A stretch of 64,000 nucleotides of DNA from Candidatus Woesearchaeota archaeon (GTDB lineage: Archaea; Nanobdellota; Nanobdellia; Woesearchaeales; GW2011-AR9). Under the pieces are notes generated by a model, which was given only the letters and a program-made list of their open reading frames with translations, searched no databases and had not been told where the DNA came from. Each line of letters opens with the position of its first letter. The first letter of the stretch is position 1. The translations under genes were made by a program, and so were the position numbers. The stretch covers positions 380,359-444,358 of the forward strand of contig JABHDY010000003.1 of the NCBI GenBank assembly GCA_018676855.1. The letters run 5' to 3'. Shown piece by piece: positions 35,139 through 64,000 of this stretch.

Positions 35139-35721
35139 TCTTTCTTTTTATTACTATAACAATAACCAGTATTACGATTAATAACACAACCACAATAAGT
35201 ATTGGCCATAATATTGTACGTATTATTTCGCCATCATCTTGTTGTATACCGCCTACGGTCGTGACATCTTCTGCTTCATCTTCCACTACAGATGTAGGAA
35301 CGTCTTTACTGAACCGAGTAACATCGATAGTTTCTAATAACTTTAAATCAGGATTGTACAAGTTAATCTCTTGCGCATTTTCATAATACGGAACAAAAAT
35401 GGTTAAATCCGTTTCATTCAATATAATCTGTCCACCCCGATCAATCTCTCCTTCTTCATTAACGCCGTCCCAAAAGATTTCTAACGGAACAGTAAAGAAA
35501 TTAATGGAAAGAATCTCGTTGTCAAAAGACACAATTTCTGCTGCATACAGATCTCTATCAACAATCTCTTCTTCAGCAGGAACAATAGTAATACTTTCCA
35601 TTACCAAATCGCCAAAAGAATAATGTAGATCAATTTTGTACTGTTTCTCTACTTCTCCTACTGCCAGAGGTACAAGTAATAAAAGTAAAAGTAACATAAT
35701 TTTAAATTTCATTGGTATCAC
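35128..35721 (-). CDS. Secreted protein with C-terminal TM anchor
   Basis: N-terminal signal MKFKIMLLLLLLLVPLAVG; C-terminal ILWPILIVVVLLIVILVIVIVIKRK. Confidence 0.6.
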   Translation of the reverse strand: MIPMKFKIMLLLLLLLVPLAVGEVEKQYKIDLHYSFGDLVMESITIVPAEEEIVDRDLYAAEIVSFDNEILSINFFTVPLEIFWDGVNEEGEIDRGGQIILNETDLTIFVPYYENAQEINLYNPDLKLLETIDVTRFSKDVPTSVVEDEAEDVTTVGGIQQDDGEIIRTILWPILIVVVLLIVILVIVIVIKRKNEK

Positions 35722-36484: not shown

Positions 36485-36561
36485 AAAAAGAATGATTGAT
36501 TTCAACTATTTAAGTGTTTTGTGACGTCAAGAATGTCAGATTCCTTATTATTAAACGTTGT
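36434..36561. repeat. 128-bp direct repeat, copy A
   Basis: 127/128 identical to 52828-52955 (single c/t difference at 36452/52846). Confidence 0.95.
36502..36561 (-). pseudogene. Orphan 3' fragment (TTFNNKESDILDVTKHLNS*) of the gene at 52896-54077
   Basis: DNA identical to 52896-52955, but no open upstream gene here. Confidence 0.8.
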
Positions 36562-45950: not shown

Positions 45951-46466
45951 ATGACCCAACACTACAAACGTGAACCTTTGGAAGAAGATGAAATGTTCTT
46001 GCTCAAACAAGCATGTAAAACATTTGAAGAATCGTTAATCATCAACGTCTTGTTAGAAACTGGAATGAGAGTTAGTGAACTTGCCAAACTAACCAAGGAT
46101 CAAATCTCATGGCAACGAGATTGTATCACAACCTATGGCAAGGGTAACAAGAGAAGAGTAATTCCTGTGAGTAGCACCACGAGATTTTACTTGAGTGAAT
46201 ACTTCAAAGAACAAGCGAAGATAAAATACGGTGAGAGATGGATTCAAAAGACGGTCAAACGAGTAGCTGAGAGAGCAAAGCTGATGAAGAAAGTAAGTCC
46301 GCATGTTCTTAGGCACACTTTTGCTGTGTGCTATTTGCACAAAGGGGGGAATGTGAGAGCATTGCAGGGTATATTGGGGCACTCTCATATTCAAACAACG
46401 GACATGTATCTCAACTATTCTGGGATTCGTGTGATAGATGATTTTAAGAGGGTATGGGAGCAATGA
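45951..46466 (+). CDS. Minimal tyrosine recombinase/integrase (catalytic domain only)
   Basis: LLETGMRVSELAKL, HVLRHTFAVCYLHKGGNVRALQGILGHSHIQTTDMYLNY; RBS-like ggaggt. Confidence 0.92.
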   Translation: MTQHYKREPLEEDEMFLLKQACKTFEESLIINVLLETGMRVSELAKLTKDQISWQRDCITTYGKGNKRRVIPVSSTTRFYLSEYFKEQAKIKYGERWIQKTVKRVAERAKLMKKVSPHVLRHTFAVCYLHKGGNVRALQGILGHSHIQTTDMYLNYSGIRVIDDFKRVWEQ

Positions 46467-47666: not shown

Positions 47667-48398
47667 TTACGCGGGAGATTGGAGGAAGTTTAGTTTTTCA
47701 TGATACTCTTCTCTGCTCAGATCTCCGTTGGCAAATCTGAGTTGCAAAAGTTGCACTGGATCTGTGATATTATGATTGAGTTTGTGTTTTTTGTTTTTTC
47801 CAAATGCTCCATTAATTTTGTTCTGTAAATCTTTATTGCTAATATAGGCATAGATTTGCGTTGTGTGAATATCTGAGTGCCCCAAAGCTCGTTGCACATA
47901 ATAGAGATCAACTCCTTTTTCCAAGAGAAAGGTGGCATACGTATGTCTGAGAGTGTGGAATGAGTATGCATGACGTTGCTGACCATGTTTGGTTTTCTCA
48001 GTTGGGATAAGTAACTCTGCTTTTTTCAGATACGCTCTGAACTTCTGTGAGAGTTGCCCAGTTGCCATTGTCTTATTATACATTCCAGGAATCACAAATT
48101 CTGAATCCGAGATGCGAAACCATTTTTGCAAAATGGGTTTCATTTTCTCTGGCAGCATCACGTAGCGATCTTTACTTCCCTTTCCTTGCACGATTTTTAT
48201 TTTCTCTGCTTCGAAATCAATGTCTAACTTTTTCAAATTGCACACTTCTGAAATCCTAAGTCCGCAACATAATCCTAACAGTGCTGCAATGAAGACATCT
48301 GTTTGTTCAATCACTGAGAATAGTTCAGTGAGTTGCTTTTTGTTGAGAACGTTTGGCAACTTTCTTCCTTTTTCTTTGATTCTTCTAACGTTTACCAT
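47667..48398 (-). CDS. Tyrosine recombinase/integrase with C-terminal SHOCT-like motif
   Basis: LCCGLRISEVCNLK, HTLRHTYATFLLEKGVDLYYVQRALGHSDIHTTQIYAYI; tail DPVQLLQLRFANGDLSREEYHEKLNFL. Confidence 0.92.
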   Translation of the reverse strand: MVNVRRIKEKGRKLPNVLNKKQLTELFSVIEQTDVFIAALLGLCCGLRISEVCNLKKLDIDFEAEKIKIVQGKGSKDRYVMLPEKMKPILQKWFRISDSEFVIPGMYNKTMATGQLSQKFRAYLKKAELLIPTEKTKHGQQRHAYSFHTLRHTYATFLLEKGVDLYYVQRALGHSDIHTTQIYAYISNKDLQNKINGAFGKNKKHKLNHNITDPVQLLQLRFANGDLSREEYHEKLNFLQSPA

Positions 48399-49019: not shown

Positions 49020-51836
49020 CTATGTTTGTCCTGCAACAGTACCTGTTGAAAGTTTATATATTTCATCTATTTTTTCTTTTGTTTTTCCTCTTCCTCTAAA
49101 CTTCCACCGATATATTGAAAAGATATCTTCTGTTTCACGTAATTCATCAATGCTAATAACATGATCTAAAATATGGGCATCAATTGCTGGTTGAGACCCT
49201 TCAAAGATTCTTACGTAGGGTCTACCATCAATTTCTAATACTTCTTTTATAGCTTGAGCATGTCCTCCTCTCAAAATCACATCTCCTGGTTGAACACCAT
49301 CATATCTTTCTGGAGGTATTATTTCAATATCTTGTTCCCATGACCTACCTTTTTCGATTCCTTCAACCAACGCTTCATACGTTCTTGTGGACTTACTCAT
49401 CCAATCACTAATAAACACCCTGCCCCTACCAGGATAATCACTTAAACATGTTGCACCTTTATCATAACAGATATCTCTTCCTGTTACGCGCGCATACTCA
49501 TACGCTAACCGAAACTGAGTATCTATACATTCTTGTTTTTTGCTTATTATACCTAACGCAAGTTTGTCCTGATTAAAATATACTATTTCAGGAACTTCTA
49601 AAAGTTGACCGCCAACAGTAACATGTGATTCGCGGTCAAACCATTCTCTTGTATATTGATAAATGTCAGACTTTTTCATTACTGGAAAACCTTCAAGGTA
49701 CTCAGAATAGCTTAATCTTGCATTTCCATCTTCAGAACTGATAACTTGGCCGAAAACGCCCGTCTTTCTTTCTCCAATATCAACAGTTAAGTCCGATTCA
49801 ATTCTTTTAAGATGGTAGGATTTACTATTAAGTTCACGACTAAGCCCTATGTATTCCAAGAAACGAGGGTCGGATTCGATTTTGTTTAATTCTAAATATA
49901 CTGCTTTAATTTTTTCTTGAACTTCTTGATATTCCTTTTTAATTTGTTCAGCTTCTTCAGGCGTTCCACGTTGCTCTGCCCTTCGTAAATCTCCTAATAA
50001 AATACGACTTTGAGTTCGTAGTCCCATTGCTACCTGTTTAGTACCACCATATAAAAGATCAGTATATTCTGATCTTTTACTTCTAAGAGATAAAGCATCT
50101 TCCTCAATAGGTTTGATTAATGTAGTTAACTTTTCTATTTCTGTTGTTAATCTTTTTTTTTCTTGTAGAAGATCCTCCCTCTCTTCAAAAGTAAGAGCAG
50201 GGTAATAAGACGTGTCCACACCAAGATCGTACGTTTTTTCTTCTCCAGAATCTGTAGTATACAAAATACGCAAATCAGAGGCCACTAAAGCTGTATCCTT
50301 ACTTTCACTTGCTTTACCAATAATATCCTCACCGTCTGTCTTTAGATGCCACTTACCATCAAGGATTTCAACATTTCCTGATGCCTTAGCACTTAATGCC
50401 AAAGGTCGATTAGTTTCTGACTCTCTTTGAAGAATTATTTCTCCACCATCCATTGTAAATTCAAAACGCCCTTCCCTTTTCTGAGTTTTCCAATCCTCAT
50501 AAACAAGTTGAAATTCTGGGAATACTGGATTATCATCTTCTAATTTGGTTGTAAAACCATTTCCACTTGCCAGAACATAATCCTTCCCAGAAATAAAATG
50601 GTTACCCTCTGGCCTCATTGAAGGAACAAGCTTTTCATATAATTTTTCTCTTTTCTGACGGTACCGCAAATTAATATCTTCTCGTTCAATGATAAAAGGG
50701 AGAGATTCTTGTGTTAATTCTCTTAAAGCACGTCCCGCAGAATTAACTTCTGAAATAACTGAGAACAGTTCAGTTTCAACAGCAGAAATTTCTGTGTAAC
50801 CTGCTCTACGTTCGTTAAGATGCTTTAACTTTATTTCTAACTCTTTCTGTTTCTTTTTGCTTGATGCAAATTTTGCACTTGTTTCACCAAACACTTTATC
50901 AAATTCGTCTAATTGAGAAAATTTGGCAAGATCTTTCTTTTCTCTTTCGTTAAGTTTGTCTAATTCAACATTTTCAATATACAACAATTGTAACGTTGTA
51001 TCTTTCTTTGTGACATGAGTAAAACCGTCGACGGAAACGTCAGAAGAGGACCCCACTAAAACTGGTTTACCATCTTTAAAAGTGAGTGATCCTTTTCTAA
51101 TCATATCTTTATTTGGAAGATTAATGTCTTTACCTTTAATAGTTAAAGAAAGATCTTCATCCATACCAGCAATTGTAGATTTTGATAATGTAAGTTCTTC
51201 TAATTCCTGATCAAATTGGAAAATAGTTTGTCGATCAAAACGCACTCCTGCAAAACCCATGGCTTCGCCCCGAATCGTACCTTCTTTAAATGAAAATGTT
51301 GCTAACTGAACCTTTTTACCAGCAATCTCACCTTCTTCCAAACTAAAATCTGTAAATCCATAGGGCATGACTTTTGCGCTTAATGTCCCTTTGAAGTCCC
51401 ATTCTTTCTCGGCCGTATCAATTATGAAAATGTTACCTGATGAATCTATTTTTATTTTTTCGTCAGCATCAGAAAAATCATAAACGTTAATCTCTTGACC
51501 AGCAGTTCCTCTCAGTACCCCCTCTTGTTCATAATTAAAAAGTTGAGAAGAAACTCCTGGATCAATTGTTATGCTAATACCTTTATATTCCATATAATTC
51601 TCAAAAACAACTGGAGCAGTAACAATATTAGAAGAATCCATAAAGTAATCATACGCAATCTGAACATTTTCGTCAGTAAATACGACTATTTGTTTAATGT
51701 ACGTTATTTGATCTGATGAACTTAAGAAACTAAAATCGTCAGGATTACCGTCAAACTCTTCTAATGTAATTTCTCCTTCTGCCACGACAAAGTTAATTGC
51801 CAGTACAAGCACTATAGTTAAGATTAATTTTTTCAT
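49020..51836 (-). CDS. Large secreted beta-rich protein with C-terminal NlpC/P60- or CHAP-like domain
   Basis: Signal MKKLILTIVLVLAINFVVAE; C-terminal ECIDTQFRLAYEYARV ... PGDVILRGGHAQAIKEVLEIDGRPYVRIFEGSQ. Confidence 0.5.
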   Translation of the reverse strand: MKKLILTIVLVLAINFVVAEGEITLEEFDGNPDDFSFLSSSDQITYIKQIVVFTDENVQIAYDYFMDSSNIVTAPVVFENYMEYKGISITIDPGVSSQLFNYEQEGVLRGTAGQEINVYDFSDADEKIKIDSSGNIFIIDTAEKEWDFKGTLSAKVMPYGFTDFSLEEGEIAGKKVQLATFSFKEGTIRGEAMGFAGVRFDRQTIFQFDQELEELTLSKSTIAGMDEDLSLTIKGKDINLPNKDMIRKGSLTFKDGKPVLVGSSSDVSVDGFTHVTKKDTTLQLLYIENVELDKLNEREKKDLAKFSQLDEFDKVFGETSAKFASSKKKQKELEIKLKHLNERRAGYTEISAVETELFSVISEVNSAGRALRELTQESLPFIIEREDINLRYRQKREKLYEKLVPSMRPEGNHFISGKDYVLASGNGFTTKLEDDNPVFPEFQLVYEDWKTQKREGRFEFTMDGGEIILQRESETNRPLALSAKASGNVEILDGKWHLKTDGEDIIGKASESKDTALVASDLRILYTTDSGEEKTYDLGVDTSYYPALTFEEREDLLQEKKRLTTEIEKLTTLIKPIEEDALSLRSKRSEYTDLLYGGTKQVAMGLRTQSRILLGDLRRAEQRGTPEEAEQIKKEYQEVQEKIKAVYLELNKIESDPRFLEYIGLSRELNSKSYHLKRIESDLTVDIGERKTGVFGQVISSEDGNARLSYSEYLEGFPVMKKSDIYQYTREWFDRESHVTVGGQLLEVPEIVYFNQDKLALGIISKKQECIDTQFRLAYEYARVTGRDICYDKGATCLSDYPGRGRVFISDWMSKSTRTYEALVEGIEKGRSWEQDIEIIPPERYDGVQPGDVILRGGHAQAIKEVLEIDGRPYVRIFEGSQPAIDAHILDHVISIDELRETEDIFSIYRWKFRGRGKTKEKIDEIYKLSTGTVAGQT

Positions 51837-51837
51837 T

Positions 51838-52878
51838 TTATATAATTTTTAGTTGTAACAATTCAATAACTTCATTTCCAATGGTATCTGTAACTTTTAT
51901 ATCAACAAAATATATGCCCTGTTGACCATCCTGGGGAGTGAAAGAGATTATACCATTTTGATCAATATCAAATATGTTTGTGTTATCAGTATACATAACG
52001 TCATCTTTGTTAGTTTTAACTTCTAAATAAAACTTTTCACCGATAAATGTTTCATGATTCTTTAATTCTTCAACATTCAAAGTTTCATCATCATCAGAGA
52101 TCATTTCTATTATAAATTCAAAAGTAAAGTATTCATTATCAAAACTTACAAAACCGTCCTGTAATCGATATAAAATAATGTTGTTCTCAAATGGAGATGA
52201 GTCATAAATGGGGTATGCGTCAATATGTAAATTCTCATCATCTGCCCATCCATCTAAACAAGTTAAGCATATGAACCCTACATTTTCTTTATAATGTTCA
52301 ACTATCTTTCGCGCAGTTGTTAAGAATTTGTTGAGTTTGATCGGAGTAGAATAAATGAACTGGCTGACTTCTGTAACTGACTGTCCTTTACTTATTCTTA
52401 GAGGATATGTTAATTCAATTATTGTTTGTGTAGCATATGTAACCTGAACGACCGGATTTTCAGCATAAATGTTGTACCCCTGTTCTTTATGAAGAACAAA
52501 ATCGTTAACACATTCTACCATTTTTTCTTCAACATACTTTTTAAGTTCTTCTTCAGCTTTATCTTTTTCAATGACCATTGACGTATCGTCAAAATAATAA
52601 TATGGAAGTAAATCGTCAAAGAACACTATTGAATAATCAACTGGTGGGTTATAATAACCTCCCTGGTGGCCAGTTCGTAATAAACCTTTTTCAGACACTT
52701 CATTTAAACATGATTGAACATAATTCTCTACAGAAGAAGAATAGGGAACTTTAATCAAATCGTAATTCACTAACAATTCCTCTTTCTGAGTTTCTCCACG
52801 AAATATGAAAAAACCTACAGTTAGAATAATTAATATTCCAACAACTATAAAGATAGTTATTTGACCTCTTTTATTCAT
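51838..52878 (-). CDS. Prepilin-like membrane protein (cassette copy B)
   Basis: MNKRGQITIFIVVGILIILTVGFFIF; paralogue of 35702-36484. Confidence 0.7.
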   Translation of the reverse strand: MNKRGQITIFIVVGILIILTVGFFIFRGETQKEELLVNYDLIKVPYSSSVENYVQSCLNEVSEKGLLRTGHQGGYYNPPVDYSIVFFDDLLPYYYFDDTSMVIEKDKAEEELKKYVEEKMVECVNDFVLHKEQGYNIYAENPVVQVTYATQTIIELTYPLRISKGQSVTEVSQFIYSTPIKLNKFLTTARKIVEHYKENVGFICLTCLDGWADDENLHIDAYPIYDSSPFENNIILYRLQDGFVSFDNEYFTFEFIIEMISDDDETLNVEELKNHETFIGEKFYLEVKTNKDDVMYTDNTNIFDIDQNGIISFTPQDGQQGIYFVDIKVTDTIGNEVIELLQLKII

Positions 52879-52955
52879 AAAAAGAATGATTGATTTCAAC
52901 TATTTAAGTGTTTTGTGACGTCAAGAATGTCAGATTCCTTATTATTAAACGTTGT
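52828..52955. repeat. 128-bp direct repeat, copy B
   Basis: 127/128 identical to 36434-36561. Confidence 0.95.
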
Positions 52956-54077
52956 TGTAACACTAACAACAATTCCTTCGTCTTCAGCAGGATTCTCAAG
53001 ACGAACATCAGCAATGAAATATAGTATTGTATCGCCGCACAAGTACGCTTTATTATCATCTCCCAAAACATAATCATTACACACATTATCATTATCAATA
53101 AAGTTACTTTTTTGTATTTCATTAGATTCATAGAAGTAGCCGAACTCAGATAAAACAGAATTAAATATGTCTGATGGTTTTCCCGAACGTCCTTCCAGGT
53201 ACGTTGCATCACTATAATACACAGTATATTTCTCTGCAAAATTGTCTTGTGCAAAACTAACAACGTATCTGTCTAAAGAGGAGTCGTACGTTACATCAGT
53301 AAGACTTACAGGTAATGCGGTTGTTGGTGTAAATTCTAATGCAAATTTGTATTTAATATCTATTATTGACGGGCTGATCACACAAAATTGTAGAACTCTT
53401 GTATTTGCAGTTAAAAAACCGTTATTTGTTATACATGTTCTGTCACGCCATTGATCGCCCATGTTTTGTTTTACACATTCAACTATATTGGAAGCAGTAC
53501 CACAGGCAGTAACAAGTGTCTGCGCTTCTTGATATATAGTATTATATTCAGAAAGATCATATCCTGTCTTAATAGTAAATGCGTAGGGAGTAATGTACTG
53601 TTGTGTATACATTTTATTTGCAGTAGTATGAAATAATGTATTATCCAATTGTAATACATGTCCATCTCCTTTAACAACTTCTTTATCAACAATTACATTT
53701 TCTGCTTCATGTGCAAACTTTACTTTGAACGCATTCTTAAACAATGAAACGAAATTAGTTTTTGAATCTGGAACACACCAATCATCATCTTTGTTCCATT
53801 TGTAAACATCGTCCAATATGCCACACGAAGGTTCAGTACTAAACCCACCTTTACCTGCTAAAGAAACTGCAGAATCTCGTGCAAGAACTCTCGTAGTTGA
53901 ATCTCGTTCCAAGAATTGTAATTCTGAAGTATAAAACCCATCATATAACAAATCAAAACTCCATTCGCCAGGAACTTCTTGTGAAAGAGTTACAGCATCA
54001 CTCATAATAAAGAACGTTGCAATAGCTCCAATAACTCCTAACAAAACCCAATGGAAAAAAGCACCTTTTTTATTCAT
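52896..54077 (-). CDS. Prepilin-like membrane protein
   Basis: MNKKGAFFHWVLLGVIGAIATFFIM then a large extracytoplasmic domain. Confidence 0.65.
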   Translation of the reverse strand: MNKKGAFFHWVLLGVIGAIATFFIMSDAVTLSQEVPGEWSFDLLYDGFYTSELQFLERDSTTRVLARDSAVSLAGKGGFSTEPSCGILDDVYKWNKDDDWCVPDSKTNFVSLFKNAFKVKFAHEAENVIVDKEVVKGDGHVLQLDNTLFHTTANKMYTQQYITPYAFTIKTGYDLSEYNTIYQEAQTLVTACGTASNIVECVKQNMGDQWRDRTCITNNGFLTANTRVLQFCVISPSIIDIKYKFALEFTPTTALPVSLTDVTYDSSLDRYVVSFAQDNFAEKYTVYYSDATYLEGRSGKPSDIFNSVLSEFGYFYESNEIQKSNFIDNDNVCNDYVLGDDNKAYLCGDTILYFIADVRLENPAEDEGIVVSVTTTFNNKESDILDVTKHLNS

Positions 54078-54082
54078 TATAT

Positions 54083-54388
54083 TTATTTACCATGTACGGG
54101 TACGATAGGTACTGGCTCTCCTCCCCTTATTTGTGTAATATATCTATTTATATCATCACTATCAATAGAATCGTCATTTTCATACCGTTCTATTTGATCA
54201 ACAACATAATTACTTGCTTCGTTAGCTTTCCTAACATTGCTATTAACAACCCTATCTCTATCATTCAATCCACCAATAAGTAAACCGTTGATAAGTAATA
54301 ACGCAAGAACTGCAATAAAAACTGTAAAGACTAAATCAAAAAAGTCGTCCAGCATAGCTTTTTTATTCATTATTTTATGTATCCTCAT
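54083..54388 (-). CDS. Small prepilin-like membrane protein
   Basis: MNKKAMLDDFFDLVFTVFIAVLALLLING. Confidence 0.6.
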   Translation of the reverse strand: MRIHKIMNKKAMLDDFFDLVFTVFIAVLALLLINGLLIGGLNDRDRVVNSNVRKANEASNYVVDQIERYENDDSIDSDDINRYITQIRGGEPVPIVPVHGK

Positions 54389-54881
54389 AATTTCTAAAGT
54401 GTGGTATTTTAACTTGTGTATGTATTAACAACTCATCTTTTGATAATATTCCGTTTGCATCCCTCACAAAGACATTTCGTTTTAACGTAAACGTTGCTGC
54501 ATTAAAATAATTGTTCGTTTTAATGGTGGTACCCTTATCACGAAGTTCAAGTTCAAAATTGAACGTTCCGTGACCTTTTTCAGGATTAGTTTTGTAACAT
54601 AATAATTCCATTCGTTCAGTTGTAAATTTGTCTAAATCAATAACTCCTGGATAGACACGTTTAGTATCGACGTCTTGATATGCAAAACATTCAGGAATGT
54701 TTGTAAAGCGCAGAGAAATAAATTCTGCGTTAATTTCTGGTGGAAATTCTGTTAAGGCATTACGATAATTAACAATTATTAACACAAATCCAATAACAAC
54801 TAACGTAATGATAAATCCTGCAATCATCCAATATATTGACTTTCGTGCAACGTCAAACTGCGCTTTTTTGTTTATTGACAT
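54375..54881 (-). CDS. Prepilin-like membrane protein
   Basis: MSINKKAQFDVARKSIYWMIAGFIITLVVIGFVLI. Confidence 0.65.
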   Translation of the reverse strand: MSINKKAQFDVARKSIYWMIAGFIITLVVIGFVLIIVNYRNALTEFPPEINAEFISLRFTNIPECFAYQDVDTKRVYPGVIDLDKFTTERMELLCYKTNPEKGHGTFNFELELRDKGTTIKTNNYFNAATFTLKRNVFVRDANGILSKDELLIHTQVKIPHFRNYEDT

Positions 54882-55300
54882 GGTTTAATTGTAACTATTT
54901 TATTTTGTTTTTTTATACATAACGTTCCCGTATCTTTTACTGATCCTGATGCAGAATGTTCAAATGGAAGGGACATGTATCGTCGTACAGGAAATGGATC
55001 TGTTCCTTCATCTTGATCTTCAAGAACAACAATCTCGTCCGAGGTAAGAAGGAACGTATATCCAGTAATATCTTTTGGATATTCAATTGACGCATCGCCA
55101 GGAGTTCCAACAAGCGTATTTATCATCATACGCATATCTTCTGCATAGAACGTTTTCTGCGTATTTGTTGACCCTGCAAATTCTGTCGCAACTGAAAATG
55201 TTATAAGAATGACAAGTATGACGGCAAGAATTTCAAAAATGGCCATAAGAATGCTTGAGCCTTTTTTATTCAAACGTAACATACACCATTCCTCCTTCAT
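54872..55300 (-). CDS. Prepilin-like membrane protein
   Basis: LNKKGSSILMAIFEILAVILVILITFSV. Confidence 0.6.
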   Translation of the reverse strand: MKEEWCMLRLNKKGSSILMAIFEILAVILVILITFSVATEFAGSTNTQKTFYAEDMRMMINTLVGTPGDASIEYPKDITGYTFLLTSDEIVVLEDQDEGTDPFPVRRYMSLPFEHSASGSVKDTGTLCIKKQNKIVTIKPCQ

Positions 55301-55985
55301 TCTTCAGTTTGGTGACTGTTCTACGAGGATCGTCTCCTGATCTAAATTTGTAAAATTGTTGGACGTTAACATCATCTTCAAGTTGAATGACGACTGATTG
55401 TTTACAGAATAGTTCTCTGTTGAATATTTGTAAAACTCCAGTAACTGTTTGAGAACGAGGTAATGGTTCTTCACGCACGAACGTATCAATAAATTCAACT
55501 TGTTGACATAACATCATACAATCTTTCTTAATACCTTCTTTTGTACATTTATTATCGGGATAATCATAAAAAACATAGTATTGTTTACAATCATCGCCTG
55601 AGCATTGACGCATGTATTCTTTTGTTGGTGATCCACCAAAATTTGGAACATTTTTTCCAAATCCAGACCGAGCATCAAAATCGAAAGCAGGAACTGAAGG
55701 ATATTTCAACCAAACTTTTTCACCATCCTCATTAAACTTCACAATTGACGTATCATCATCTAATATTAACAAAAAACTTGACTGGCTCCCATCACCACTA
55801 TTAGAAACCGTTCCAATAACATTAACAAAATCGTTAAAGTTTGTTGCAGCTTGATTACTTAACCTAAACAATTTAGATGTAAAGTAACATGCAGGAGTAA
55901 AAATAAGTAATGCTAAGACTACTGTTACAAGAAACTTTATCATGATAGCTTTTTTGTTCATTGTTATGTTAGTGTGTTTACACAA
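55266..55985 (-). CDS. Prepilin-like membrane protein
   Basis: MNKKAIMIKFLVTVVLALLIFTPAC. Confidence 0.6.
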   Translation of the reverse strand: MCKHTNITMNKKAIMIKFLVTVVLALLIFTPACYFTSKLFRLSNQAATNFNDFVNVIGTVSNSGDGSQSSFLLILDDDTSIVKFNEDGEKVWLKYPSVPAFDFDARSGFGKNVPNFGGSPTKEYMRQCSGDDCKQYYVFYDYPDNKCTKEGIKKDCMMLCQQVEFIDTFVREEPLPRSQTVTGVLQIFNRELFCKQSVVIQLEDDVNVQQFYKFRSGDDPRRTVTKLKNEGGMVYVTFE

Positions 55986-56272
55986 TCTGTTGCTTTATTA
56001 AACGGATCAGAACATGGTTTACTACATATTTCATCATTCCCTAACTGATCTTTTCCTAATTCTTGCTTTTCTGGATCGCAGGGACAATCATCAAACGCAT
56101 CAGCAGCATTATCTTTATCACAGTCTGCTAATCCAGCAATTCTTGTATCGATAGTATCAAACGCTTTACTACTTCCTCCACGGAAATATACTAATATTAA
56201 CAAAACAACTACTAACACTAATAATGCAGTTCCTATAATCCACCACATTTGTGACATTCCTTTTTTATCCAT
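55964..56272 (-). CDS. Small prepilin-like membrane protein
   Basis: MDKKGMSQMWWIIGTALLVLVVVLLILVYF; DKDNAADAFDDCPCDPEKQ. Confidence 0.65.
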   Translation of the reverse strand: MDKKGMSQMWWIIGTALLVLVVVLLILVYFRGGSSKAFDTIDTRIAGLADCDKDNAADAFDDCPCDPEKQELGKDQLGNDEICSKPCSDPFNKATDCVNTLT

Positions 56273-56289
56273 AATTAAAACACCTCTTT

Positions 56290-57150
56290 TTACGTTCCTG
56301 CAATGCCTGCAACAAGGTTACAGTTCTTAAAAAATTCCTTTTGAATTCCTCGTTCAAGATCTACTAATATAATACCATCTGTAGTAACTTTTTTAGTCAT
56401 TAAATCAGAAACTGTAGTGCTTATCCCAGCAGCGCCAATAGCTAATAAACCTAACCCACCCGTACCAATTCCAAATATTGCAATAGATGTTATTCCAATT
56501 GCAGCTGCAGCCGTACCGCCAGCAGTAAGTTCTGGAACCAGTACGCCACTTGTTGACTTTGCTTTAAATGCAATACCGTACGCCCTGTCAGGTTTAATAC
56601 CTTCATTGGTAAGAACGCCTATAACATATCCTGGGCCGCCACCACCATATTGAAAATAATCTAAATATTTTATATTCTTTTTTGGATAATCTGTTGTTCG
56701 TAAAAAATCTTTAAATTCTTGTGCAGAAACTCCATCGCCAACAAAATCATTATCTTCTTCAACAAGTATTGTTGAACAGACAAAACATTTTGAACCGCCA
56801 CTAAACGCGTTTGTATTTTCAAACACGCTTGTTTTGTACCGGCCCTCACCAAAAATGTCCCAACAACGTGCCATTTTGTCTGCAATAATTTGTTGAACCT
56901 CTTCTTTACTACCAGATATCTTTTTATCAATAGTTTGACATAGTAATGGCGCAATTTTTTGTTCCGTCCCTAACACTTTGAAAGATGCGACTGAACGGAG
57001 AGCAACACTATCTTTACATAACGCTTCCGCCTGTTTTTCTTCAGCATCAGACATGAACCTAAATACGACACCTGCAATAAGCATAAAACTAAGTATGACT
57101 ATTATTAACGCTACAAGAAATCCCATACTAAGACCTTTTTTATTTACCAT
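56290..57150 (-). CDS. Prepilin-like protein with second internal Gly/Ala-rich hydrophobic hairpin
   Basis: MVNKKGLSMGFLVALIIVILSFMLIAGVVF; later GGTAAAAIGITSIAIFGIGTGGLGLLAIGAAGIS. Confidence 0.6.
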   Translation of the reverse strand: MVNKKGLSMGFLVALIIVILSFMLIAGVVFRFMSDAEEKQAEALCKDSVALRSVASFKVLGTEQKIAPLLCQTIDKKISGSKEEVQQIIADKMARCWDIFGEGRYKTSVFENTNAFSGGSKCFVCSTILVEEDNDFVGDGVSAQEFKDFLRTTDYPKKNIKYLDYFQYGGGGPGYVIGVLTNEGIKPDRAYGIAFKAKSTSGVLVPELTAGGTAAAAIGITSIAIFGIGTGGLGLLAIGAAGISTTVSDLMTKKVTTDGIILVDLERGIQKEFFKNCNLVAGIAGT

Positions 57151-57152
57151 TT

Positions 57153-57977
57153 TTAACTACATGAATTAATTTTCCCTGTTTTCAATTGTTGTGGAATAGA
57201 AAATTCGTCGCCGTTGTTAGAGAAATAATCTTCGTCAAGACCATCTTCATCATTATCACCAGTTGGAAAAAAACAAATATGTTCATTGTCTGGTTTGTAC
57301 AAGAACCCATTGTCATTGAAATTTTCATATTCATTAATTATGTTTGATGGAAGTACAGGGATACGAATAATATTACCTTCCATCATTCCTTGAAAAGAAT
57401 CAAACGTAATCATAATTTGTTTTACAGGCATAAAATATTGACCAAGTGCTGGATTTTCAAGATATACTTTTTTTCTTTCCAAGGGTCGTACAACACCATA
57501 ATTCCACTCTCCAAAAAAGACATCATAAAATTTGTCAACAACATCCTCACTTCCAGCAATAACGCAGGGTTTAACACCTTCAATTTCTTTATAGAACACT
57601 TCTTGTACACCACCAACGCCACGTAACACTTCTATTGCAGTTGATTTTTTTTGTTCATTGTATGTAAGGGTAATCGTTGTTCCACCTAACGATGAAAATC
57701 CACCATAATTATCAAAACAAAATTTTGTAGTACTACTTTTCATACGTTCCATCGTTGATATTAATTTATCAACTTCTGCTTGTTGAGCTGGAGGGAGTGT
57801 AGGTCTACTTGCAGTAACTTCTTCTGCACCTATTAAATCGTCAATACTTGCGTTAACATCTGACACAACATCTTTCACACTTTCAAACGCGCCAGTAGGA
57901 TTATAATAAAACAATAAAAATAGAACAAGAACAACGAGAGGTATTATGTACGATAAAAGTTTTTTTATTGCAACCAT
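57153..57977 (-). CDS. Membrane-anchored extracytoplasmic protein
   Basis: N-terminal VAIKKLLSYIIPLVVLVLFLLFYY. Confidence 0.6.
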   Translation of the reverse strand: MVAIKKLLSYIIPLVVLVLFLLFYYNPTGAFESVKDVVSDVNASIDDLIGAEEVTASRPTLPPAQQAEVDKLISTMERMKSSTTKFCFDNYGGFSSLGGTTITLTYNEQKKSTAIEVLRGVGGVQEVFYKEIEGVKPCVIAGSEDVVDKFYDVFFGEWNYGVVRPLERKKVYLENPALGQYFMPVKQIMITFDSFQGMMEGNIIRIPVLPSNIINEYENFNDNGFLYKPDNEHICFFPTGDNDEDGLDEDYFSNNGDEFSIPQQLKTGKINSCS

Positions 57978-58129
57978 TACAACAACTCCTTCAATTTATC
58001 AAATAGTCCGACCAATTGTGTACGTAAACCACCATACCATGCAATAACAAACAAAAGAAGGATAAGTGAAAGAATAATAATTACTAATTGCCACATCTCC
58101 ATACCCTTCTTATCTTTAAACATATTCAT
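57977..58129 (-). CDS. 50-aa prepilin-like mini membrane protein (absent from ORF track)
   Basis: MNMFKDKKGMEMWQLVIIILSLILLLFVIAWYGGLRTQLVGLFDKLKELL. Confidence 0.65.
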   Translation of the reverse strand: MNMFKDKKGMEMWQLVIIILSLILLLFVIAWYGGLRTQLVGLFDKLKELL

Positions 58130-58254
58130 GGTAATAACCGTCCTTTTAGTTTAATAAAATAAAAAATTAAAAAAAAGCCAAGCAATGCGCCAATGATAAC
58201 GATAACCAGTGTTGTTGGACTTGTCCAGTCAACCCCTTTCTTGTTAAATTTCAT
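58126..58254 (-). CDS. 42-aa prepilin-like mini membrane protein (absent from ORF track)
   Basis: MKFNKKGVDWTSPTTLVIVIIGALLGFFLIFYFIKLKGRLLP. Confidence 0.6.
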   Translation of the reverse strand: MKFNKKGVDWTSPTTLVIVIIGALLGFFLIFYFIKLKGRLLP

Positions 58255-58647
58255 TTATGTACATTTTTTGTCAGTTCCACAAGTACCTGAAATACATTCT
58301 ATACCTGAAGTACATGTTTTCCCTTGACTTTTCTTTGAACCAAAGCAACATTCTTTTGCTGTATCCTTACAACTAAATGCACTAGAAACAGATCCACCAA
58401 CGTTCTCGCAATCTGCTACAGTAGAATGTGTACAATCTCCACCTTTACTCTCACAATCTAACAAACCGCCTTCAAGTGTACCTGTCTTGCTTGTAAACAT
58501 GACCATCAATATGATCATAACTACAAGCGCTATAACAGCACCAATAATTATCCACCACATGTTTGCGGAAGCTTTCCGACCATGAGGAAGGAAAGTAAAA
58601 AAATTGCTAAACCAATTTTTATTTACTTTCTTCATTTCTAGCTCCAC
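58255..58647 (-). CDS. Cys-rich single-TM protein
   Basis: GRKASANMWWIIIGAVIALVVMIILMVMF followed by ~10 cysteines. Confidence 0.6.
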   Translation of the reverse strand: MELEMKKVNKNWFSNFFTFLPHGRKASANMWWIIIGAVIALVVMIILMVMFTSKTGTLEGGLLDCESKGGDCTHSTVADCENVGGSVSSAFSCKDTAKECCFGSKKSQGKTCTSGIECISGTCGTDKKCT

Positions 58648-58979
58648 TTACAGCCAGCAATTAAACAACTGGTTTGATCATTAGCTTTACAATCAGCAAC
58701 TCTCGTTTCAAGATCTGTAATTGCTTCCTGTTGTTCTTCAGGTGTTTCTGCAGAACCGTATGCACGAAGGAAATTTTGTTCTGATAAGCCAGTTGGTTGA
58801 CAATCACCATACGAAATTCGTATTTTTGCTATTTCTGTTTGGCCTTCTTTACTGACACCTCGTTCAAAATCTGCAGATTTTGCAGTAAAAATAACTACAA
58901 GAACTACGAGAACTATTAACGCTATAGCAGCAACAATTATTACATTTAACGAAAGACCTTGCCCTTTTTTGGAAAACAT
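58638..58979 (-). CDS. Prepilin-like membrane protein
   Basis: MFSKKGQGLSLNVIIVAAIALIVLVVLVVIF. Confidence 0.65.
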   Translation of the reverse strand: MFSKKGQGLSLNVIIVAAIALIVLVVLVVIFTAKSADFERGVSKEGQTEIAKIRISYGDCQPTGLSEQNFLRAYGSAETPEEQQEAITDLETRVADCKANDQTSCLIAGCKWS

Positions 58980-59073
58980 TCTTCTTTCACCTCATTTTTT
59001 ATCTATCTATGACTATTCTATCCTTCTATTTGAGAAAGAAAAATGGTATATAAACCTTGCTATAATTTCACGT

Positions 59074-59604
59074 CTATTCACACACATACAGCACACTTCT
59101 GACAAGACCGTTACCTGATGGCAAATAGAAATCTCCTGACGTATCACGTACACGATCTTGACAATGTCCACCTGTACCGGTTACCGCATTATATCCATCA
59201 ATGTACAAAAACTCTTCATTGTTTGAAACCATTTCAGATACAAAATGGTATTTCTTTCCCCACACGCCAAGAGTTTGGTCTAAAAGTTCTTCAATTTTAA
59301 ATTGTAAAAATTCACAACTTGGTTTTCCTTCACAAATATAGTTACTATGTACATCGCCAAATACTGCACAATCGTCAAGTAAATCACCTTCAATTTGTGG
59401 AAATTGTGCTGTTCCTTCGGTACAACCAGTTACTGTCATTTTCATAACTGCTGCCATTGTACTTGCAGCAAGTTCCTTCCGAGTAAATATGTTCTTATCA
59501 GGTTCATCTTTAAGCGCAAATTGTGCCATGAAAAGAATGCCAAGAGTAATAAGTATAACTATAACAACCAACCCTGCCATTTCCATCTGTGCACGTCGTC
59601 TCAT
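59074..59604 (-). CDS. Prepilin-like membrane protein
   Basis: MRRRAQMEMAGLVVIVILITLGILFMAQF. Confidence 0.6.
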   Translation of the reverse strand: MRRRAQMEMAGLVVIVILITLGILFMAQFALKDEPDKNIFTRKELAASTMAAVMKMTVTGCTEGTAQFPQIEGDLLDDCAVFGDVHSNYICEGKPSCEFLQFKIEELLDQTLGVWGKKYHFVSEMVSNNEEFLYIDGYNAVTGTGGHCQDRVRDTSGDFYLPSGNGLVRSVLYVCE

Positions 59605-60113
59605 GAATATACCTCTACCGTAACAACGCCAAAACCGTACGTTGGTTCACCGTTTGATTGTTGCGATTCATCTTTCAATGTCACGATAAAATATGTTGGT
59701 TTTGTTTTAGTAGTATCAGGTTTTTGATTATCATATATTGTCCACGTATCTGTACCACCATCCGGAACTTCAGGATAATATTGTTTCACAGTTATCTTCG
59801 CATACGAAAACATGTTAAAATAATAATTTTTATTATCAGCAAACACTGACTCGGCAGACTTTAATTTCATCATGTCAAAACAAAACTGTTCAGCTTCTGC
59901 GTCTCCCTTACTACATAACAGTTCAGGTAAGAATAACGTTTTTGTGGTTGTATCAATGGCCCTTCTAGCAAACAATTCGTCCTGTTGTTGATTAAATGAT
60001 ACTTCAGAATATTTATAATAAAAAATTGAACCAAAAAGTACTAATATAAAAAATATGAAAAGGACGGCAATAGTTTCGGACATGTGAACTTGTCCACGTT
60101 TTGTTCGTTTCAT
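59601..60113 (-). CDS. Prepilin-like membrane protein
   Basis: MKRTKRGQVHMSETIAVLFIFFILVLFGSIFYY. Confidence 0.6.
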   Translation of the reverse strand: MKRTKRGQVHMSETIAVLFIFFILVLFGSIFYYKYSEVSFNQQQDELFARRAIDTTTKTLFLPELLCSKGDAEAEQFCFDMMKLKSAESVFADNKNYYFNMFSYAKITVKQYYPEVPDGGTDTWTIYDNQKPDTTKTKPTYFIVTLKDESQQSNGEPTYGFGVVTVEVYS

Positions 60114-60120
60114 TGTATAT

Positions 60121-61266
60121 TTAGTATAATGCGATACAATTTGTATCGCGCATATCTTTGTTCAGTGTCATAAGGTTAACAGCAGAAACTATTAATGAAG
60201 TACATGAATCAAATTCTGACAGCGTAATAGCAACATTACATGTATTAACAGCAGATAGATACACATTAAACTCTTGTTGAATATTATTCGTTCCAATAGA
60301 CGTAAATGTTGAATAACAAATATTATCCGTTTGTCCATCATAAAAATCAATAATATCTGCCGTTTTTGATGTATAAATTTCTGATAAATATGTAAGTCGT
60401 GTAAAGGCTTTCTGCATACCGCACTTGTATATGTCATCATCTCCTGCAAAAATTGCTGCGTACTTAGCAGCTTGCCTCTCACCAGGAACCATTATTAATG
60501 GAACTGGCGAACCATCTTGTACAAAAGAATTTGCACTTTTACGATAGTATTGAACAGTATTTCCACTAAAAACAACTGCGCTTACTTTATCGTCAGGAAG
60601 TGTTGACAATTTGGAGCTAGAAGGAATGTCTGGCGGCTGATTATCATTAACAACAATTAACCGTACGTGCGAACTTGCACCAGGATCAATTTGTAAAATT
60701 TCTTTATATTCAACATCTATCTTTAACAATTCTTCACGCGGCGTTAATTCCGGCGTTTCACCATTCTCATCAGTTTCTTTCTTTGTAGATGCTGCACGTT
60801 CAAACTCGTCAGAAAAATCGTCCTCGCCAATAAGAACATACTTTGCGTTTGACGGAATGACAAACAAAAAATCGATAACTTTATACGGAAGTTTGTACGG
60901 AAGGCTCCATAAGACAAGTCGTGGAGCTTGAATAGTTTTCATTGAAAACATGGGATTGATACTGTTCTGTACCCTTGTACCCTGTTCTTGAATTCCAAAA
61001 TTGCTTACACCATCTTCACAATTAAAAAAGAATTCTGTGTCTGCTAAACCGCTAATATCAATAGAATTTTTTGTACTTTCAGACACTTCAGCAGCAGTAA
61101 ATATCGATTCCATGATTTGAACAACTTCAAAACTTAATTGTTCTTCAGATACCGCTTTCTGTTTCACTACAAGACCGACAAAGAATAAGAGAATTATCGC
61201 ACCTGCTATAACTATATATATCCAATGAAATGTTATTTGTATCTGTCCCTGTTTCGTTTTTTCCAT
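60121..61266 (-). CDS. Prepilin-like membrane protein with large extracytoplasmic domain
   Basis: MEKTKQGQIQITFHWIYIVIAGAIILLFFVGLVV. Confidence 0.65.
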   Translation of the reverse strand: MEKTKQGQIQITFHWIYIVIAGAIILLFFVGLVVKQKAVSEEQLSFEVVQIMESIFTAAEVSESTKNSIDISGLADTEFFFNCEDGVSNFGIQEQGTRVQNSINPMFSMKTIQAPRLVLWSLPYKLPYKVIDFLFVIPSNAKYVLIGEDDFSDEFERAASTKKETDENGETPELTPREELLKIDVEYKEILQIDPGASSHVRLIVVNDNQPPDIPSSSKLSTLPDDKVSAVVFSGNTVQYYRKSANSFVQDGSPVPLIMVPGERQAAKYAAIFAGDDDIYKCGMQKAFTRLTYLSEIYTSKTADIIDFYDGQTDNICYSTFTSIGTNNIQQEFNVYLSAVNTCNVAITLSEFDSCTSLIVSAVNLMTLNKDMRDTNCIALY

Positions 61267-61283
61267 AATACTTTTCCACGTTA

Positions 61284-61844
61284 TTAATTAACAAGGATAC
61301 GTGTCTTGTCACCCCTACCCATATATTTAAGTTCAAAAGAGCCACCATTGATTGGAACGCAATGGAAACCTACTAATTCGTCGTCATCTTCATCATCAGT
61401 ATTTTGTCTATCAAAAATCTCTATCCGACTTACTTTAATCTTTTCAGATGATAATGGTGTTAAGAACACGTTCGCTTCAACGTCATCAAATACAGTGTTT
61501 GTATATCCCTCCCATGCATCGCATGCAATGGGATCTTTGGTACATAAGCGAGCCATTTCAGAATTTAGATCATCTTCATCATATTCCATATTCACAAAAC
61601 ATATCTGTGTATATTGTAATGGTGTATGAAACGTATCAATACGTATTGCACCATATTCGGTATAAATACGTTTAATTGACTGTTCCAAATCAGTTTTAAA
61701 CTGTACAAATTCTACCCTTTCGCCCGTATCTAAAAAGTCAGTAACTGCTTTATATCCAAATATCATGATAAGTGCAAACGTGATTGCAGCAACAATAAAA
61801 ATAAACACTTGGCCGATAGCCATTCCTCTCTTTGAACAAACCAT
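61284..61844 (-). CDS. Prepilin-like membrane protein
   Basis: SKRGMAIGQVFIFIVAAITFALIMIF. Confidence 0.6.
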   Translation of the reverse strand: MVCSKRGMAIGQVFIFIVAAITFALIMIFGYKAVTDFLDTGERVEFVQFKTDLEQSIKRIYTEYGAIRIDTFHTPLQYTQICFVNMEYDEDDLNSEMARLCTKDPIACDAWEGYTNTVFDDVEANVFLTPLSSEKIKVSRIEIFDRQNTDDEDDDELVGFHCVPINGGSFELKYMGRGDKTRILVN

Positions 61845-64000
61845 TATGATTCACCCTTTCGCTTTTTACTAATTTTTTTAAGTTTTGTAAAGATATCTTT
61901 CGCTTCATCTTTACTTACAACTTCATGAATCTTTTTCGTCTTAGTCTTTTTTGCAATAGATTCAAGTTTTGCAAAGATACCCTTTTCGTGCGACTTTAAT
62001 CCTGGTTGAATCTCGTCCTTATGAGCAACGTACCTATTTGCAAGCGATTGAACTTTTGATAAGTGTGGCGCTTTTTTCTGTATAAACTCGTCAACGTGTG
62101 GTATTGACGGAGAACTTGTACTAAATGATCCAAACAATGACTTCCGTGACCGTTCTTTTGTACGACCCTCCCTTTTCCGTCGAAGGAACGATAAACGATC
62201 TTTCCACGTAATATCTTCTTGAACAGGCTTTTCCATAACTGCCCGTGGCTTTTCTGCAGTGGAAGGTTTCTTCGTTCCTGGTGCTCCGGAAAATTTGTAA
62301 TAATATAGTAAATAACCAACACCGCCAAGCAATAATGCAAGTCCAATGAAAAGGAATGCGAATGCAAGAGTATTATCATCAGGAGTTATTGATGGACCAG
62401 CAGTACTAGGCGGTAAATCTCTTGGTTCGTCAATATCAGAACCTGTACCTGCAGAAAAGTTAAAATCGTCCTCATCAGTATCGTACGGCGGATATGAAGG
62501 GTACACGTCATTATCATCATCGTCAACGTCTGACGCATCGCACGGATCTGTATCAGCTTTATACTCTTGATAATTCGTTTTTCCATCATCGTCATAATCT
62601 TCGTCAGGGTCTAACACACCGTTACTATCAGAATCGTTCCGTGCAGAATTAAATTCGCAATTGAACGCATTATACTGTTTTTCCCATGCGTCTGGAAGTG
62701 TATCATTATCAAAATCTCGCGTCTTTTCCAATTCTGAAAGTTGGTCAGATGAACAACCTTCACCGTCAACAACTTTACCTGAACCAGTATCGTCACAAAT
62801 GTCGCACCTTCCTACAATACCATCACCGTCAGCATCGTCAAATTCAACAGTGTCAACTGACCGAATACTATTACCAAGAGGATCAGATACTGAATAACAT
62901 ACCCAGCCCGTCCTATTAAATAATATGTTCTGGCCAGCATACGACCTATTTTCTGTACATTCGTCAGACGAATAACTTTGACTAAACTCAAACGAACTGC
63001 ATGAAGTTTCGTCAGTACAATCTAATGATACGCCAACACGTGTACATGATATTGTATTTAACGAAATCATTGTAACGGACGGAGCTGTCGTGTCCATGAA
63101 ACAAATTGAATGATTTTCATTAATGATAGTAACGCCATCACTTTCAGATATCTGGGCAGTATTTCCTGCTTCGTCCCACGTATATAATTTAACACTATAC
63201 GTATGATTTTCAATAAGTGTTTCTGTTGAAATGTTAATTGGCATGCCGGGACCAACAGTTGCTTCTAACACTTTTCCTCCGGGACCTACAGCCGTTGCGT
63301 TAATATTGTGTGCAATAACACCATCATCGTACAATTCGTATGAATATCCCGTGATAACTTCTTCATCAGTTGTGACAAAAATTGAAATAACATCACTTCC
63401 ACACGTATAATTACCGTCAGAAATTTGGGTAATAGTAGGCGGTGTTTGATCTATCGTAAACATAATTGTTGATTCTGCAGTATGTTCGCCAATAACACAT
63501 TTAACAGGAATAATGTACTCGCCCTCGCCAAGTTCAGTTAATGTTGACGTGTGTACTTTACCACCAGTTTCTGTAAATGGATAAATGATAGTGTCAAGTT
63601 CATATTCGCATAATGCATTCTTATTAGTTTCAATATATAATGTCATGTCAGACGCTGAAAAATAACCATTCTGGGGAGATAATGTAAGAATATTTCCAAT
63701 AATAGAATAATCAACATCAAACTCTATAGTTTCAACTTCAGAAATGTCGCCGGCACCGTTCATGCACTGTGTCAGTAACGAATACTTTTTCGTTGTTCCA
63801 AGGAAATTGATTGAAAATTCGTCATCGTGATCAGTAAACAATTCCTTTTCAGTAGTTCCAGGAAATGAATATTCCATTGCAAAATAATCTTTCGTTCCCG
63901 CATCATCAGAATTGTCACTGTACTTACATAACGTTTTATCATCAGTTTCAACAAAAATGTTTGTCGATATTCCTTCAACGACATTATCGGGATCAGCGTA
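61844..64000 (-). CDS. Large surface protein with Asp-rich thrombospondin-type-3/EF-hand-like repeats and C-terminal TM + basic tail (partial, open at window edge)
   Basis: DDADGDGIVGRCDICDD, DFDNDTLPDAWEKQY, DSDSNGVLDPDEDYDDDGKTNYQEY; TM LAFAFLFIGLALLLGGVGYLLYYY; frame remains open to base 64000. Confidence 0.75.
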   Translation of the reverse strand, partial: YADPDNVVEGISTNIFVETDDKTLCKYSDNSDDAGTKDYFAMEYSFPGTTEKELFTDHDDEFSINFLGTTKKYSLLTQCMNGAGDISEVETIEFDVDYSIIGNILTLSPQNGYFSASDMTLYIETNKNALCEYELDTIIYPFTETGGKVHTSTLTELGEGEYIIPVKCVIGEHTAESTIMFTIDQTPPTITQISDGNYTCGSDVISIFVTTDEEVITGYSYELYDDGVIAHNINATAVGPGGKVLEATVGPGMPINISTETLIENHTYSVKLYTWDEAGNTAQISESDGVTIINENHSICFMDTTAPSVTMISLNTISCTRVGVSLDCTDETSCSSFEFSQSYSSDECTENRSYAGQNILFNRTGWVCYSVSDPLGNSIRSVDTVEFDDADGDGIVGRCDICDDTGSGKVVDGEGCSSDQLSELEKTRDFDNDTLPDAWEKQYNAFNCEFNSARNDSDSNGVLDPDEDYDDDGKTNYQEYKADTDPCDASDVDDDDNDVYPSYPPYDTDEDDFNFSAGTGSDIDEPRDLPPSTAGPSITPDDNTLAFAFLFIGLALLLGGVGYLLYYYKFSGAPGTKKPSTAEKPRAVMEKPVQEDITWKDRLSFLRRKREGRTKERSRKSLFGSFSTSSPSIPHVDEFIQKKAPHLSKVQSLANRYVAHKDEIQPGLKSHEKGIFAKLESIAKKTKTKKIHEVVSKDEAKDIFTKLKKISKKRKGES

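Follow-up and report, generated by a model that had tools for sequence, protein, structure and literature searches.

A conserved operon of class III-signal proteins in Woesearchaeota that probably encodes components of a surface machine resembling type IV filaments

What would a long operon of prepilin-like proteins build if no motor gene lies beside it? This question is raised by a locus of a Candidatus Woesearchaeota archaeon (GCA_018676855.1), which we analyzed in a window of 64,000 nucleotides (contig JABHDY010000003.1, positions 380,359 to 444,358). As listed in Table 1, g2-g17 are 16 consecutive minus-strand ORFs of 42 to 393 aa, arranged head to tail from 52896 to 61844, with intergenic gaps of −35 to +17 bp and a single larger one, 94 bp, that separates g5 from g6. 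The run is headed by g1, a giant surface protein of which only the C-terminal part lies inside the window. Both the count of about 16 genes and the surface protein at the head are as given in the original prediction, made from the sequence of the window; g18 is of the same class as g2-g17 and lay outside the coordinates of that prediction. With about 17 genes, the number of pilus-type surface proteins that the locus encodes is unusually high. Further genes of the locus, among them u165 and u633 on L003, lie beyond the window on its upstream side. A common tail of g1 and u165, suspected by eye, was unsupported by BLASTP (E = 1.4). The archaea that carry the locus are tiny and probably host-dependent.

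Table 1. Genes of the locus and other window features named in the text (window positions; ^, predicted cleavage site)
Feature	Position	Strand	Length (aa)	Class III signal	Remarks
g1	61844-64000	-	2091		Surface protein; C-terminal 718 codons in window; full gene L004:10202-16477
g2	61284-61844	-	186	SKRG^MAIGQVFIF	Phylum-wide core member
g3	60121-61266	-	381	TKQG^QIQITF	Core; 6 Cys
g4	59601-60113	-	170	TKRG^QVHMSE	Core
g5	59074-59604	-	176	RRRA^QMEMAG	Core
g6	58638-58979	-	113		Small pilin-like; paralogue of g7 and g12
g7	58255-58647	-	130		Small pilin-like; paralogue of g6 and g12
g8	58126-58254	-	42	Present	Signal and single helix, nothing more
g9	57977-58129	-	50	Present	Signal and single helix, nothing more
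g10	57153-57977	-	274	Absent	N-terminal anchor
g11	56290-57150	-	286	NKKG^LSMGF	Relatives often have duplicate copies
g12	55964-56272	-	102	DKKG^MSQMWW	Paralogue of g6 and g7
g13	55266-55985	-	239	NKKA^IMIKF	
g14	54872-55300	-	142	NKKG^SSILM	
g15	54375-54881	-	168	NKKA^QFDVARK	Signal as in source genome
g16	54083-54388	-	101	NKKA^MLDDFF	
g17	52896-54077	-	393	NKKG^AFFHW	Closes conserved gene order
g18	51838-52899	-	353	MNKRG^QITIFIVVGI	'QITIF' family
g19	49020-51836	-	938		Sec-type exported protein at operon end
g18 paralogue	35702-36505				
HESGH-bearing protein	32979-35138				Exported; follows g18 paralogue
Recombinase-like gene	45951-46466				Tyrosine-recombinase-like
Recombinase-like gene	47667-48398				Tyrosine-recombinase-like

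Nearly all products of the run had been predicted to start like prepilins, and in 14 of the 16 genes g2-g17 the class III signal is indeed kept in relatives. The exceptions are g10, which lacks the motif in every species examined, and g15, which has it in 13 of 21 species; many relatives carry an acidic N-terminus (MSDD.FDVARK) in its place. Across 15 gene families with 11-21 species each, K/R was found at a mean frequency of 0.88 at −3 and 0.88 at −2, and G/A at 0.95 at −1, compared to a mean of 0.135 in ectodomain columns. G or A stood at −1 in 252 of 267 aligned sequences over the 15 families (239 of 246 when g15 was left out), and the two residues alternated there in 14 of the 15. The FlaFind-type check that had been proposed gave a corresponding result, since a FlaFind-like scan was passed by 15 of the 17 ORFs g2-g18 but by 5 of the 46 other window ORFs that are 80 aa or longer, one of the five being the g18 paralogue. 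The class III motif is real and beyond chance, and the alternation of G and A at −1 points to a prepilin peptidase. Similarity between the operon gene families resides mainly in the N-terminal helix; pilins likewise resemble each other mainly in this helix.

We further examined two of the core proteins with AlphaFold. In the model of g4 (mean pLDDT 93.2), a continuous N-terminal helix of 56 residues (5-60) is joined to a head with a beta sheet; in that of g3 (mean pLDDT 92.7), the helix spans 48 residues (14-61) and is followed by a beta domain and then by a C-terminal helical domain. As modeled, both proteins have the extended helix of about 50 residues and the globular head that are seen in pilins. 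Foldseek searches of the two models against the PDB returned no match at E ≤ 0.001, and PDB sequence searches with the g3 and g4 profiles gave chance-like matches only. Of the pilin fold that had been anticipated, the models thus bear out the pilin-length N-terminal helices, but leave the heads without a solved counterpart. Head folds vary widely among known type IV filament subunits, so that a match of the head is not strictly defining.

The unmatched heads of g3 and g4 could also be those of a static surface array, that is, of N-anchored proteins, cleaved or not, that assemble laterally without motor-driven polymerization. The plain anchors of g10 and of many g15 proteins and the great diversity of subunits fit such an array, but the G/A alternation at −1 indicates a prepilin peptidase, and helices of 48-56 residues are far longer than a membrane anchor requires.

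No pilin or archaellin model was matched in Pfam by g1-g7 and g9-g19 or in NCBIfam by the eight operon proteins searched; apart from g1, no operon protein received a usable name from Pfam, NCBIfam or PADLOC. The ectodomain of g1 contains CarboxypepD_reg and TSP3-like Asp-rich repeats and is rich in Cys (80 residues), and the protein's C-terminal transmembrane segment precedes a conserved cytosolic tail of ∼150 aa. A long run of small unknown proteins near recombinases might suggest a cluster of structural genes from a virus or an integrated element; however, PHROGs gave no match for the operon proteins, the g4 model had no Foldseek match among viral models at E ≤ 0.001, and the genes are colinear, mostly with one copy per genome, across the order and the phylum. 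We consider a viral origin of this kind extremely improbable.

In Woesearchaeota genomes, g1-g17 are all colinear, and most of this gene order is kept in other families. The order g2-g3-g4-g5 is kept in other orders as well, where an S-layer gene and a gene of the QITIF family often lie in the neighborhood of this core; a QITIF-family member lies after g17 in the same genus (G001) and ahead of the core in those orders. The g3 profile matched 203 of 245 genomes of the order and 290 of 380 of the phylum, and the locus is mostly single copy. One locus record (L172) is labeled Diapherotrites, that is, outside the phylum, a label that may be wrong. At the level of single genes, the Glu at +6 of g4 is almost invariant and its Cys pair is conserved, the copy number of g6 differs among relatives, and g19 has no homologue at the same place in the relatives examined. 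Conservation of motif and synteny in relatives substantiates the claim that the class III-signal proteins belong to one long and coherent operon; a lack of conserved synteny had been expected to contradict this claim.

Neither the window nor any operon locus examined, those of relatives included, contains an ATPase, TadC-like platform or peptidase gene. For the window, this had been stated in the original prediction, along with the proposal that the components could lie elsewhere, and an ATPase, a TadC-like protein and a peptidase are all encoded elsewhere in the same genome; the additional idea, that the missing ATPase means an apparatus that works differently, is unsupported. The ATPase, of the FlaI/GspE2/CpaF type, is the sole T2SSE-family ATPase found in the genome. 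Its best PDB match is archaeal GspE2 (2oap, E = 9.8e-32), with further matches to FlaI (4ii7, E = 1.2e-18) and CpaF; with the FlaI equivalog model it reaches 135 bits, where the cut-off is 550, and orthologues occur in 76 of 80 genomes of relatives. The adjoining gene encodes a TadC-like membrane protein of 738 aa with ∼9 hydrophobic segments in two groups, which has no match to PF00482 or in NCBIfam and is present in 78 of 80 genomes. Many other families of the order also have the two genes next to each other, so we rejected the notion that their adjacency is exceptional; they are apart in many genera of the source's family. Their neighborhood (L005) includes coiled-coil-like proteins. The prepilin peptidase, encoded at L002:1015-1866, is FlaK-like (Peptidase_A24/PF01478, E = 1.1e-14; PDB FlaK 3s0x, E = 1.2e-8), carries the catalytic motifs DIKTREVPDWL and GGGD, and was found in 225 of 245 genomes of the order. 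Operon and motor are linked by co-occurrence only, which is weakly informative because all partners are near-universal. A static array would leave the conserved ATPase and platform without known substrates, and we regard it as quite unlikely.

That archaeal GspE2 is the closest solved structure of the ATPase also agrees with a T2SS-like pseudopilus, a short piston across the S-layer that would export enzymes or adhesins without forming a long pilus. Many different single-copy subunits, few of them repeated, would suit such a piston, as would the S-layer gene that adjoins the core in other orders and the exported proteins encoded after g18-type genes (g19, and the HESGH-bearing protein after the g18 paralogue). 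However, no secretin was seen, the exported cargo genes are not conserved together with the locus, and no outer membrane to cross is known from archaea of this kind. An export piston of this type seems unlikely to us.

In our view, the products of the locus are probably the building blocks of a surface machine in this DPANN lineage that resembles type IV filaments. Within the type IV filament superfamily it would be a variant rich in subunits, probably a pilus or pseudopilus of heteromeric composition that bears a giant adhesin. About 15 of the proteins are prepilin-like (g2-g9, g11-g14 and g16-g18, with g15 in some species) and would be inserted with the N-terminus inside and cleaved after G or A by the FlaK-like peptidase. 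The ATPase and the TadC-like platform would extrude them as an ordered hetero-oligomer, which may be a short pseudopilus or else the complex at the tip or base of a pilus. The uncut membrane anchors or scaffold could be g10 and, in species where its signal is absent, g15, while g1, with its giant ectodomain and conserved tail, would be an adhesin or S-layer-spanning partner. The likely use would be attachment to the host or to other cells. A bolder reading, that this is a distinct machine class and a general attachment organelle, with a fixed hetero-oligomer of about 15 subunits, new head folds, a phylum-ancestral core, the motor pair of the lineage and a giant adhesin with a cytosolic tail, strikes us as possible but doubtful.

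Minor (pseudo)pilin tip complexes of T4P and T2SS consist of several single-copy subunits in fixed order that have only the N-terminal helix in common. The present operon resembles them also in having subunits with extra domains, such as the C-terminal helical domain of g3, but holds three to four times more subunits, shows no PilY1/DUF2341 match in Pfam, and has heads that are not homologous as far as compared. Archaeal type IV pili loci (PMC4858521) likewise combine class III-signal proteins, minor pilins and a large surface protein or adhesin with a peptidase, a VirB11/FlaI-family ATPase and TadC. Unlike them, the locus described here has no ATPase or TadC gene in its one colinear operon, and its different prepilin-like subunits number about 15, compared to "at least 5" likely minor pilins in methanococcal-type loci (Makarova et al. 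2016, PMC4858521), and its proteins have no detectable similarity to pilin models.

In DPANN "dark matter" islands, uncharacterized signal-peptide proteins have been read as diverse pilins on the basis of the FlaI/TadC-type genes and surface proteins present (Makarova et al. 2019, PMC6393860). Judged by the text on the example islands, that account includes motor genes, whereas our operon has none, and does not extend to gene-by-gene orthology, order-wide colinearity or structures. A CpaF ATPase, coiled-coil proteins and TadC are encoded in two type IV pilus-like loci that are conserved in DPANN archaea, Woesearchaeota included; of the two, only locus 1 has FlaF and PilA (Hamm et al. 2024, PMC11291902). 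In the sections compared, these loci resemble the ATPase/TadC-like neighborhood L005, and a multi-pilin operon is not among what they describe. Within reach of our literature search, we found no description of the present locus. The original term "undescribed" thus applies to the locus itself, but not to the concept of diverse DPANN pilins, which were already predicted in the dark matter islands.

Pilus motors without recognizable pilins have been noted in nanoarchaea (PMC4858521) and in Nanohaloarchaeota and Undinarchaeota (PMC9563170), and the locus may hold the pilins missing from DPANN pilus systems. With a defined core, g2-g5, and with candidates for these subunits that are aligned and phylum-wide, it makes the question of how these archaea hold their hosts testable. 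If our reading is true, this order-conserved operon of about 15 subunits would be an extreme example, within the type IV filament superfamily, of how far subunits can diversify.

The window (C1:380359-444358) belongs to a 944-kb assembly of four contigs. The original prediction of a long consecutive run of minus-strand genes was borne out: g2-g17 are separated by gaps of -35 to +17 bp, plus one of 94 bp, a spacing like that of one operon. The giant surface protein gene g1 heads the run; its frame extends past the window to 2091 aa in all. The g1 product carries 80 cysteines, a hydrophobic segment at the N-terminus, CarboxypepD_reg domains, TSP3-like Asp-rich repeats, and a TM segment (residues 1920-1938) followed by a tail that is conserved within the family and presumably cytosolic. 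A reasonable guess is that g1 is an adhesin or an S-layer-crossing anchor docking inside. Beyond g17 lie g18, which shares the N-terminal type of the run, and g19, encoding an exported protein of Sec type; in G001, a genome of the same genus, g17 is directly followed by a close relative of the g18 paralogue found in a smaller second gene set. Two tyrosine-recombinase-like genes near the downstream end are a possible source of lineage-specific genes there. Upstream of g1 we noted u165, u633 and exported proteins that are large and rich in Cys, among them u1771 (48 Cys); u633 is a class III protein of the g18-related QITIF type, and 28 ORFs in related loci are homologous to it.

Features discussed in the text (unprefixed positions refer to the window; L002, L003 and L005 are other loci of the same genome)
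Feature	Position	Strand	Remark
g2-g17	61844-52896	-	headed by g1
Second set of exported/class III-type genes	32979-36505	-	smaller than the g2-g17 run
g18 paralogue, MNKRGQITIFMVVGI	35702-36505	-	member of second set
197-aa exported protein	within 32979-36505	-	member of second set
719-aa exported protein, HESGH metalloprotease-like motif	within 32979-36505	-	member of second set
Tyrosine-recombinase-like gene	45951-46466	+	near downstream operon end
Tyrosine-recombinase-like gene	47667-48398	-	near downstream operon end
u165, u633, u1771 region	L003:4196-15761		upstream of g1
169-aa protein	L002:412-921	-	adjoins peptidase gene
SepF neighbourhood	L005:3099-7951		near ATPase/TadC-like genes

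Lack of conserved synteny in relatives would have counted against the original prediction. In the 20 loci fetched, g1-g17 kept their order and strand, and where contigs permitted the set was complete or nearly complete, even at only about 30% protein identity. Within the family, g17 was present in 44/47 other genomes searched. A g3 profile matched 203 of the 245 genomes in the order and 290 of the 380 in the phylum; its weakest hits (E near 1e-4) are less certain. Other families of the order begin with g1-g2-g3-g4-g5, continue with one to several g6/g7-like genes and g11 copies, and end with g13-g14-g15-(g16)-g17, with losses. Among the other orders of the class that were examined, the recognised members were g2-g3-g4-g5 only, often preceded by a QITIF-family gene and a large Cys-rich protein; the large gene that often follows matched PF05124 (S-layer family) in both cases tested, once above and once below the curated cut-off. 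This narrower set suggests that the g2-g5 core is old and that the long operon arose by expansion in the Woesearchaeota-type order. We note that in L118 (genome G050) g3 lies within a 2520-aa open frame, apparently fused with upstream locus sequence, and that L172, a record titled Diapherotrites, contains g3 and g4 homologues, so that either the system extends to another phylum or the label is wrong.

The class III signal was counted in orthologue alignments of each gene (15 families, 11-21 species each). At the presumed cleavage site, K/R averaged 0.88 at both -3 and -2, and G/A averaged 0.95 at -1, compared to 0.135 in ectodomain columns. Position -1 was G or A in 252 of 267 sequences (239 of 246 leaving out g15), and both residues occurred in 14 of the 15 families, others being rare; a prepilin peptidase tolerates such alternation. 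Position +1 was nearly always Q in g3, g4, g5 and g6. A FlaFind-like scan of the window passed 15/17 ORFs of g2-g18 versus 5/46 other ORFs of at least 80 aa, missing g10 and g14; in g14 the hydrophobic helix contains a Glu, which explains the miss. The signal predicted for nearly all genes is thus real and conserved, but in the species examined g10 has an ordinary anchor without the motif, and g15 frequently lacks a basic leader and begins MSDD.FDVARK instead; by sequence, these two genes do not behave as prepilins.

Profile-profile comparison identified g6, g7 and g12 as paralogues and placed similarity between other pairs mainly in the N-terminal 20-60 residues. Type IV pilins likewise share an N-terminal helix, of about 53 residues, and have unrelated heads. 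AlphaFold2 models of g4 and g3, from 69 and 68 natural sequences, have N-helices close to that length: residues 5 to 60 in g4 (pLDDT 93.2, pTM 0.79), as a single helix with a head of two helices and several strands, and 14-61 in g3 (pLDDT 92.7, pTM 0.87), followed by a beta domain and a C-terminal helical domain. Nearly all g4 sequences retain a Glu at +6 and a Cys pair. Foldseek returned no solved relative of either model (E ≤ 0.001), so the heads look new in these two proteins.

Assembly components, absent from the window, had been expected to lie elsewhere unless assembly worked differently, and candidates for them are encoded elsewhere in the genome. There is one PF00437 ATPase; its best PDB match is archaeal GspE2 (2oap, E 9.8e-32), ahead of FlaI and CpaF. 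About 60 bases downstream, a gene encodes a 738-aa protein whose roughly nine hydrophobic segments form two groups; it is TadC-like by position and shape, with no PF00482 match. A 283-aa peptidase matches Peptidase_A24 and FlaK (3s0x), and the adjoining gene encodes a probably beta-rich protein, which bears a class III-like signal and may be a major pilin. Since no second secretion ATPase was found in the genome, this ATPase is the likely motor if the operon proteins are motor-assembled. Of 80 genomes, 76 have an orthologue of the ATPase and 78 one of the TadC-like protein, the two genes being adjacent in many families; across the order, the peptidase is found in 225/245 genomes and a T2SSE-family ATPase in 244/245. 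Because the machinery is near-universal, co-occurrence alone proves little. Inteins are suggested in G003, G033, G036 and G054, where the ATPase orthologue has an interruption near residues 500-557 and its open frame spans 1263-1333 aa. The surroundings of the ATPase and TadC-like genes also include SepF (PF04472), two coiled-coil-like proteins, three small proteins with several membrane spans and a DUF11 membrane protein, which recalls the two DPANN loci of PMC11291902 that combine CpaF, TadC and coiled-coil proteins.

In earlier work, nanoarchaea were described with a clade 4F ATPase whose pilins were not identifiable (PMC4858521), pilin genes were annotated neither in the Nanohaloarchaeota genomes studied nor in Undinarchaeota (PMC9563170), and signal-bearing unknown proteins of DPANN islands were predicted to be diverse pilins (PMC6393860). 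In the main texts searched, largely of open-access papers, we found no description of this operon, of the colinearity across the order or of a g2-g5 core.

We propose that the prepilin-like subunits enter the membrane N-in, that the FlaK-like peptidase cuts them and that the ATPase and platform pull them into a helical bundle; g10 and signal-less g15 would be fixed anchors. With so many different subunits in a fixed order, an ordered complex is the favoured form (tip, base or short pseudopilus); any longer shaft might consist of small subunits that are repeated (g6/g7/g12), of tiny g8/g9, or of the protein next to the peptidase. Support for superfamily membership comes from the signal, peptidase, ATPase and N-helix; the platform is a candidate, and the g3 and g4 heads have no solved match. 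Taken together, these data show that the locus is real and conserved, and it most likely represents a variant of the type IV filament superfamily that is rich in subunits and may form a filament.
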